Below are positions 5,304 to 6,521 of a stretch of 43,795 bases of DNA, piece by piece. The stretch's first letter is position 1; each line of letters opens with the position of its first letter. The DNA comes from Patescibacteria group bacterium (GTDB taxonomy: Bacteria > Patescibacteriota > Minisyncoccia > Minisyncoccales > JAHCRE01). The notes under the pieces are model-generated. The model was not told where the DNA came from. It made no database searches and saw only the letters and a program-made list of their open reading frames with translations. The stretch is from assembly GCA_020148025.1 (NCBI GenBank), contig JAHCRH010000005.1:1-43795 (forward strand). Direction: 5' to 3'. A program made the translations under genes and the position numbers.

Positions 5304-6521
5304 TCAGGCTATTCTTAGATTTGCCTCAGCCTTGATCTGCTCCCAATTTTCTTTCTCACTCCTTAACCAATGAAAATAGCCAGCTATAGCTACCATTACG
5401 GCATTATCAGTACAAAATTGGATACTTGGTTCTAGATATTGGATATTAGATGAGTCCTCTTTTATTCTTCCTTTTAACTGTTTTCTAAGTTCGCTATTGG
5501 CAACTACTCCTCCGCCAAGGATAATTGTTTTAGCTTTGTATTTTTTCGCTGCTTTAATGGTTTTTTTAATTAAAACATCAATTATTGCCTGCTGAACCTC
5601 AGCAGACATTTCTTGGATGTAGTTTTTTGAAGTCCTGATTTTAGGTGATTGTTTTTTAAAATTGTATAAAACCGCTGTTTTTAGACCAGAAAAACTAAAA
5701 TCAAAATTTTTTTGGTGAATCATCGGTCTTGGCAACCTAGTTTTTAGTTTATAGTTTATAGTTTTTAGTTTTGCGGCTTGCCGCTCAATTTCTGGTCCTC
5801 CTGGATAACCCATTCCTAAAATTCTAGCTGTTTTATCAAAGCATTCACCAGCAGCATCGTCCCGAGTTTCACCAATGATTTTGTATTCTTCAAAATTTTT
5901 CATTAAGATAAGTTGAGTATGCCCTCCTGAAACCACTAAACAAATTGCGGGAAAAATATTTTTGAAAGTTGAAAGTCGAGAGTTGAAAGTTGAGCCAACT
6001 GGCGGAAGCCAGTTAGCAAAGATGTGAGCCTCGATATGGTTTATTGGAATTATTGGTAGTTTCCAGGAGAAAGCTAAAGCTTTGGCAAAATTTACCCCCA
6101 CCCATAAACAAGGTTCTAACCCGGGCCCCACAGTCACGGCAATGACATCAATTTCCGGCTTTTGGTATTTTACTAAAAATTTTTCAAGTTGCTTATAAAG
6201 AATCTCTTCTCGTTTTAATATTTTCTTTGAAATTTCGAGTTTTAATTTAAGGTTCTGAGATTTTGAGTCCTTGGATTCTCTAAGGAGCTTAGCTCCTTTC
6301 AGTAAAGATTCCGTTAAGGCTTGTTCTAATACTGGGACAAGATTGCGCTGGTGTTCTCTTTTAGCTAAGGTTGGATAGACTCCTCCATATTTTCGGTGAA
6401 TTTTTATCTGGGAAGAAACAATATTGGATAAAATTTTAAAACGGACTCTTTTCCTGCCAAGAGCCTTAATTGTCGCTATGCAAGTATCATCACATGATGT
6501 TTCTATAGCGAGAATTATCAT
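5304..6521 (-). CDS. tsaD: tRNA N6-adenosine threonylcarbamoyltransferase TsaD
   Basis: MIILAIETSCDDT, NHIEAHIFANW, CLVVSGGHTQLIL, DFSFSGLKTAV, GGGVVANSELR. Confidence 0.95.
   Translation of the reverse strand: MIILAIETSCDDTCIATIKALGRKRVRFKILSNIVSSQIKIHRKYGGVYPTLAKREHQRNLVPVLEQALTESLLKGAKLLRESKDSKSQNLKLKLEISKKILKREEILYKQLEKFLVKYQKPEIDVIAVTVGPGLEPCLWVGVNFAKALAFSWKLPIIPINHIEAHIFANWLPPVGSTFNSRLSTFKNIFPAICLVVSGGHTQLILMKNFEEYKIIGETRDDAAGECFDKTARILGMGYPGGPEIERQAAKLKTINYKLKTRLPRPMIHQKNFDFSFSGLKTAVLYNFKKQSPKIRTSKNYIQEMSAEVQQAIIDVLIKKTIKAAKKYKAKTIILGGGVVANSELRKQLKGRIKEDSSNIQYLEPSIQFCTDNAVMVAIAGYFHWLRSEKENWEQIKAEANLRIA

Follow-up and report, generated by a model that had tools for sequence, protein, structure and literature searches.

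Reports that heptamer repeats are over-represented in bacteria go back to 2007, and a paper from 2015 stated that no detailed literature on them was available (PMC4692102). The known heptameric SSRs include the heptanucleotide repeats of Calothrix and Nostoc and the GGGNATC repeats of Xanthomonas (PMC4692102). The arrays described here resemble these bacterial SSRs in that they consist of tandem 7-nt units that are dispersed through the genome and over-represented in some taxa. They differ from the arrays of Xanthomonas and Nostoc, which use one or few words, have been described mainly between genes and contain 2-26 units (PMC4692102), whereas the arrays here use ~60 words, have a tight length mode of 31-33 nt, are mostly coding and sometimes carry an adjacent 5' hairpin. 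The head-to-tail excess of 7-nt units that is typical of SSRs was found, but the falling copy-number distribution was not, as the class of ~4 units is larger than the class of ~3. Tandem repeats of constant size and variable sequence have also been described in Bacillus and other bacteria by Subirana and Messeguer (PMC8161180), and as in our case the unit is constant while the sequence varies by locus and species. The units of those repeats are 20-21 or 52 nt, whereas here the unit is 7 nt, the array length is near-constant too and the arrays are found in essential genes. The repeats of archaeal Borgs (PMC9879509) are likewise A-rich, independently arisen and located in ORFs, where they encode disordered protein stretches. 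In contrast to the Borg ORF repeats, in which the units are divisible by three and the copies are near-perfect (PMC9879509), the unit here is 7 nt, and divisibility by 3 holds for the net change alone.

The palindromes that accompany some of the arrays have counterparts of their own. A perfect stem arises in a single event of template-switch mutation (PMC8794818), and quasipalindrome correction is known from work in E. coli (PMC7202029). The likeness to our locus is that one fold-back copying event explains perfect inverted repeats as well as matching stem changes. Pol theta makes inverted-repeat insertions by stem-loop extension, and the repair insertions left by its end joining contain copies of neighbouring DNA as inverted or direct repeats (PMC11292364). 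Pol theta is a eukaryotic enzyme, no theta-like A-family polymerase (PF00476) was found here, and no account of Pol theta making a heptad product of fixed length (31-33 nt) was found in the literature. To our knowledge, template-switch mutation does not add a fixed-length direct-repeat array beside the new arm. Template switching and Pol theta extension are known to produce the first half of the pattern (the hairpin), and neither was found described as making the repeat half.

REP elements and RAYTs (PMC2817692, PMC3733652) are similar in that palindromes and a Y1 transposase family occur in the same genomes. Unlike REPs, the hairpins of tsaD (array A) and valS are of local sequence and single copy in the genome and are therefore not REP copies; the palindrome at 6282-6298 does have 14 copies. 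Neither a GTAG nor a CGTC tag lies directly beside the tsaD or valS stem, and CGTC occurs only inside the valS stem. Rickettsia palindromic elements are dispersed homologous elements of ~100-150 bp that place in-frame palindromic sequence in protein genes. The patches here differ from these in being ~32 nt long, with locus-specific words and no inter-locus sequence likeness beyond some common words. No description of the pattern in Patescibacteria was found in the open-access literature that was searched.

Heptad arrays in tsaD and across the genome

The window is the whole stretch of 43,795 nucleotides that was analysed, and 0.6 Mb of the ~615-kb (0.615-Mb) Patescibacteria genome to which it belongs was read. 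The window ORF was identified as TsaD (TIGR03723 profile, 359.7 bits). The initial annotation described two in-frame heptad arrays and a perfect palindrome in this gene, and direct reading confirmed all three as well as the translations of the peptides and the position of both arrays between conserved TsaD motifs. Additionally, array B was found to have a fifth unit, and two further palindromes were found at 5773-5784 and 6282-6298. The features are collected in Table 1.

Table 1. Coordinates of heptad arrays, palindromes and associated genes in the window
Feature	Position	Strand	Description
valS coding sequence	3114..5264	-	contains two more heptad arrays
valS array AAATTTC	3466..3498	-	encodes NFKFQISNFK
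valS hairpin	3499..3522	.	10-bp perfect, CCGATTCGTC-TTAG-GACGAATCGG; directly 5' (coding strand) of valS AAATTTC array
valS array GCGACAA	4611..4640	-	encodes SDKRQATSDK; several other genomes have other words in the same loop
tsaD coding sequence	5304..6521	-	405 aa; contains all three inserts
Heptad array B	5739..5773	-	5 units, coding strand AAAACTA/TAAACTA; encodes KLKTINYKLKT, loop before LPRPM
Array B units	5739-5745, 5746-5752, 5753-5759, 5760-5766, 5767-5773		agttttt, agtttat, agtttat, agttttt, agttttg
Short palindrome of array B	5773..5784	.	GCGGC-TT-GCCGC, directly 5' (coding strand) of array B
Heptad array A	5962..5993	-	4.6 imperfect units, coding strand TCAACTT type; encodes STFNSRLSTF
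Array A units	5964-5991		gaaagtt/gaaagtc/gagagtt/gaaagtt
Palindrome of array A	5994..6017	.	directly 5' (coding strand) of array A; coding strand GCTAACTGGC-TTCC-GCCAGTTGGC
Third tsaD palindrome	6282..6298	.	AAGGAGC-TTA-GCTCCTT; coincides with 5-residue insertion
Intergenic array GATATTA	22592..22615	.	
ORF array TTACGGG	24223..24247	+	homologous site of sister species: GTTTACT
Broken REP-associated tyrosine (Y1) transposase	29237..29772	+	split across two overlapping frames
rpoB-rpoC spacer array AAAGTTG	39362..39386	+	
rpoB-rpoC spacer, second array CTTAAAT	39398..39427	+	

Tandem Repeats Finder detects both tsaD arrays with a period of 7 (scores 56 and 50), including the imperfect one (the "second"), which falls below the stricter scoring of the genome-wide catalogue. 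The palindrome of array A (aactggc-ggaa-gccagtt) is perfect over 7 bp at 5997-6014 and has a 10-bp stem with one G.T on the coding strand. Some relatives have longer, different perfect stems at the site of the array B palindrome. The 5-residue insertion at the third palindrome is found in no other TsaD compared. The sequence AAGGAGC-TWA-GCTCCTT occurs at 14 places in the genome, the tsaD copy included, often flanked by A and T runs in a terminator-like arrangement. With up to one mismatch, GAAAGTTGAAAGTT occurs 5 times in the window compared to 0.15 expected from dinucleotide shuffles. The same kind of repeat had also been noted in the rpoB-rpoC spacer, where the AAAGTTG repeats were found and the identity of rpoC was confirmed. 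The window also contains a 436-bp tandem duplication (699-1565, 85% matches) in which the consensus begins with an apparent small secreted-protein ORF.

The initial annotation treated tsaD as special, but dozens of loci in the genome carry such arrays and the same two TsaD loops carry other words in many genera. Among short periods, only that of 7 is strongly enriched in the genome and the sampled relatives. In our genome 31 period-7 arrays were counted versus 0-3 at other periods, and exact runs at lag 7 (and its multiples 14 and 21) are far above those at all other lags and in Markov sequences. The catalogue for this genome holds ~38 arrays of many words that lie mostly inside ORFs, and the encoded peptides include SDKRQATSDKR, QETRDKRQETR, NYKLQTTNYKLQT, PYTLNPKPYTLNP and IKNQKSKIKNQKS. 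The 340 kb read from 20 relatives in the same order yielded 44 period-7 arrays versus 0-2 at any other tested period. The relatives are uneven, with many genomes lacking arrays in the stretch read and others having one per few kb. From the wider phylum, 388 kb contained 9 period-7 arrays. One exact word array was seen in one IMG/VR viral contig. Rare other periods were seen in the ValS loops of two relatives (L177 of G026 and L184 of G034), namely a period of 8 (AACAAAAG) and a ACACAGATT repeat of ~period 10 around a hairpin.

Six array-rich genomes yielded 95 arrays with ~60 words. The array length has its mode at 31-33 nt (~4.5 units, or four units and a few bases) in coding and non-coding DNA alike, with medians of 32 and 31 nt, respectively. 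When 146 arrays were classed by unit count, 32 had ~3 units, 78 had ~4 and 21 had ~5. In the six genomes 77% of the arrays are in coding sequence, the genomes themselves being ~89% coding. On the coding strand, the arrays within genes are rich in A, and the residues that they specify are K, S, Q, I and N. Because 7 is coprime to 3, a heptad word gives the same seven codons in every frame, so that a filter against stop codons largely decides whether a word can live in a gene. Words free of stops make up 100 of 123 coding arrays versus 17 of 64 non-coding strands (P = 3e-13). The genomes have word dialects of their own.

Kept sites, changing words and polar hairpins

Site A of TsaD is the loop between NHIEAH and SGGHT, and site B is the loop between YPGGP and PRPM. 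Arrays are found in both loops across many genera of the order, and their words differ, including ACTATAA, ACTACAA, TTCAATA, ATTCCAG, CCCTATA, AAATCCA, AAATTCC and others. Two further genomes from the wider phylum (L084, L088) apparently bear an array at site A. The ValS loops follow the same pattern with many words across genera. In many relatives TsaD and ValS have no arrays, and the loops are shorter. The net gain of a loop with an array is ~4-17 residues, which is usually smaller than the array.

The closest comparison is with a genome of the same genus (G001), in which 11 coding sites could be compared with our genome. The aligned segments are ~68-88% identical at the protein level. An array or a remnant of one persists at 10 of the sites, of which approximately seven have a clearly different word and three a similar or degenerate one. 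The eleventh site is empty. Since there is ~1 array per 10 kb, the positional coincidence between the congeners is not random. The homologous loops mostly differ by 1-2 residues (3-6 nt), and across genera array loops differ in length by many amounts other than multiples of 7 residues. The initial annotation predicted indels in multiples of 21 nt, as expected for a frame-constrained gain or loss of units. With sites kept, words changed and loops that differ by 1-2 residues, this model fails at the distance of congeners, and it fails at the level of the order as well. At genus distance the site and the period persist and the word does not, and length changes are not in units, which is direct evidence against the 21-nt model at that distance.

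The structural context of the TsaD arrays was examined with AlphaFold2 on 22 window and locus sequences, with a mean pLDDT of 87 for TsaD. The residues of array A (176-184) are the only segment with a pLDDT below 50, and the block that holds array B (251-260) has a mean pLDDT of 64 and is without secondary structure. Compared to Thermotoga TsaD (6nak), both array peptides are loop insertions. AlphaFold thus puts the array-encoded TsaD peptides in low-confidence loops that are predicted to be disordered. The peptides have no equivalent in Thermotoga TsaD, which supports the initial annotation.

The palindrome of tsaD is an instance of a recurring layout in which a hairpin lies directly 5' of an array. 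In the six genomes, perfect hairpins with a stem of at least 9 are found directly 5' of 11 of 118 arrays and directly 3' of none, with 0.35 (0.3%) expected per side; this adjacency was tested after it was first noticed in tsaD. Six of the 11 belong to the homologous TsaD-A and ValS-1 sites, and without those the counts are 5 of 112 on the 5' side and 0 on the 3' side, for which our own Poisson estimate, rather than a tool result, is ~3e-5. When stems of at least 7 were counted in a wider set of 123 coding arrays, 20 hairpins were 5' versus 3 that were 3'. An adjacent perfect hairpin accompanies only ~10-16% of arrays. When the tsaD genes of 30 genomes were compared, perfect hairpins clustered at site A (in 10 of the genomes, with several unrelated stem sequences) and were fewer at site B. 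Of the two hairpin arms, the 5' one codes for conserved residues (ANW/ANF in TsaD, SRFV in ValS), with the 3' one falling within the variable insert.

A general association of arrays and hairpins within 20-80 nt was not found in our genome, and only the directly adjacent 5' layout, counted over the six genomes, is enriched. The words of hairpins and arrays are not significantly similar (P = 0.17), so that there is no significant sign of copying of the array from the hairpin arm. Another repeated hairpin family, around GAGAACTGTTCTC / GAGAAGTGTTCTC and with up to 6 copies (stems of at least 10 bp), is found on various contigs of the same genome.

Possible origins of the arrays

The kept place, period and length together with the changing word point to an unusual DNA-copying process over ordinary repeat growth. 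We lean, with reserve, towards the reading that the tsaD arrays are members of a genome-wide class of heptad patches that may well arise from an error of DNA synthesis and not from the gradual gain and loss of units. What was established directly is the class itself, its period and length mode, the polarity of the hairpins, the change of words at sites that persist, the filter against stops and, for TsaD, the placement in disordered loops; the steps of fold-back and reiteration, and any enzyme behind them, are inferred. The 3' end of the coding-sense strand would stall or break within a gene, fold back and copy itself. The existing codons would then form the 5' arm of a perfect hairpin, and the new reverse-complement copy its 3' arm. 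The end would next realign repeatedly over a short distance, giving ~four and a half direct 7-nt repeats, and would rejoin the gene with a small net gain that is necessarily a multiple of 3. A stop-free word would be tolerable wherever the protein can bear a floppy hydrophilic loop. In essential proteins, selection would retain the patches in loops at the surface, and there they would in time be made anew with other words.

The combination of a polar hairpin whose 5' arm is ancestral, repeats of fixed size and in-frame resumption matches the trace expected of fold-back and reiterated realignment. The peak of the unit counts at ~4, unlike the falling distribution to be expected of simple slippage, also argues for templated synthesis. 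For the majority of arrays, which have no hairpin, a templated origin requires that the palindrome decayed or never formed. Several candidate genes were considered. SbcD, part of the hairpin-removing nuclease, has no match over the cut-off in any of 60 relatives, and the Pol A family (PF00476) was found neither in our genome nor in 55 of the 60. Palindromes may therefore be tolerated across the order. As SbcCD is absent nearly everywhere, it was rejected as a switch between array-rich and array-poor genomes, and its absence is at most permissive. Pol theta belongs to this Pol A family, and with the family lacking in those 55 relatives no polymerase is named for the templated synthesis. DinB was rejected as the responsible polymerase, being absent from the array-richest genomes and without a significant correlation.

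The main rival is ordinary slipped-strand replication, in which chance 7-nt duplications expand and contract, the units homogenise and in-frame alleles are selected in loops, with the palindromes an unrelated AT-rich feature. This is possible, although we consider it less likely than templated synthesis. An excess of heptameric repeats among the SSRs of bacteria has already been reported, and polymerase slippage linked to active-site size has been proposed (reviewed in PMC4692102). Some arrays are longer (51-128 nt), and words at homologous sites are marginally more alike than random ones (P = 0.06), which fits a slow drift by homogenisation. Against slippage, the length mode is at 4-5 units with no fall from the shortest class, the homologous loops mostly differ by 3-6 nt and not by 7 or 21, and the hairpins adjoin the arrays on one side only. 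Slippage could act on the arrays once they are formed.

A mobile origin is improbable. The arrays would be miniature mobile elements, or the footprints of such elements, dispersed by the Y1 (HUH) single-strand transposase of the REP-associated kind, which would recognise the adjacent hairpin. Y1 REP-associated transposases were found in 32 of 60 relatives and are far commoner in genomes rich in a common heptad type (medians of 8.5 versus 0.5, P = 5e-6; 21 of 26 versus 11 of 34, P = 2e-4). This correlation uses the richness of one word type as a proxy and carries no correction for phylogeny or genome quality, and DDE transposases are too rare (3 of 60 relatives) to serve as a control. The word dialects of individual genomes and the broken Y1 copy in the window also fit such elements. 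However, the tsaD and valS stems are single copy, the net gain of the loops is smaller than the array, and G001 has many arrays and no Y1 gene. Same-word arrays were also considered as copies of one element, an idea that was rejected because their flanks differ except in one intergenic pair. This copied-element-like pair, the only one seen, is in G040 (L172, 451-481 and 3203-3233), where two intergenic arrays are alike over ~50 nt including flanks. In a further relative (G034, L204 5986-6858), an open Y1 transposase frame lies between two copies of the hairpin ATTGGGACGT-CAT-ACGTCCCAAT, which is a typical RAYT-REP layout.

A more elaborate scheme, which we regard as rather more speculative than probable, would be a dedicated process of Patescibacteria that writes a fixed-size, in-frame patch of ~four and a half heptads and is possibly begun by a nick that a Y1 (HUH) REP transposase makes at a hairpin in single-stranded coding DNA. 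If this were true, the stop-free heptad would be a frame-tolerant generator of disordered protein loops.

It is quite unlikely that the hairpin and array form a functional mRNA or protein element (translation pacing, mRNA structure or a linker peptide) whose covarying stems are under selection. Perfect stems of differing sequence do recur at one place in tsaD and in valS, and the hairpins are 5' on the coding strand. Against such a function, the elements are missing from the same genes in many relatives, arrays are found between genes too, neither words nor peptides are conserved between congeners, and no Rfam family reaches its gathering score at the hairpin and array sites except the neighbouring tRNA. 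Additionally, no selection is needed for matching arms to arise by template switching (PMC8794818). Chance or an assembly artefact can hardly be entertained, for while the genomes are mostly draft or metagenome assemblies, the counts are far above shuffled controls, the same period and length mode appear in many independent genomes, and the arrays in genes have open frames and stop-free words.

Meaning for genomes and proteins of the clade

The tsaD arrays, taken as members of a class that may well come from errors of DNA synthesis, belong to a clade with dense, mostly genic heptads and a distinctive structure. As the length is constant, the word changes, the site is kept and the hairpin is polar, the mechanism is testable. 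The class accounts for odd peptides rich in K, S, Q and N, such as SDKRQATSDKR or NYKLQTTNYKLQT, in the proteins of these uncultured bacteria. Such loops should be treated with caution and not be taken as functional or as phylogenetic markers. The heptad patches represent a route by which reduced genomes gain disordered loops in essential enzymes.
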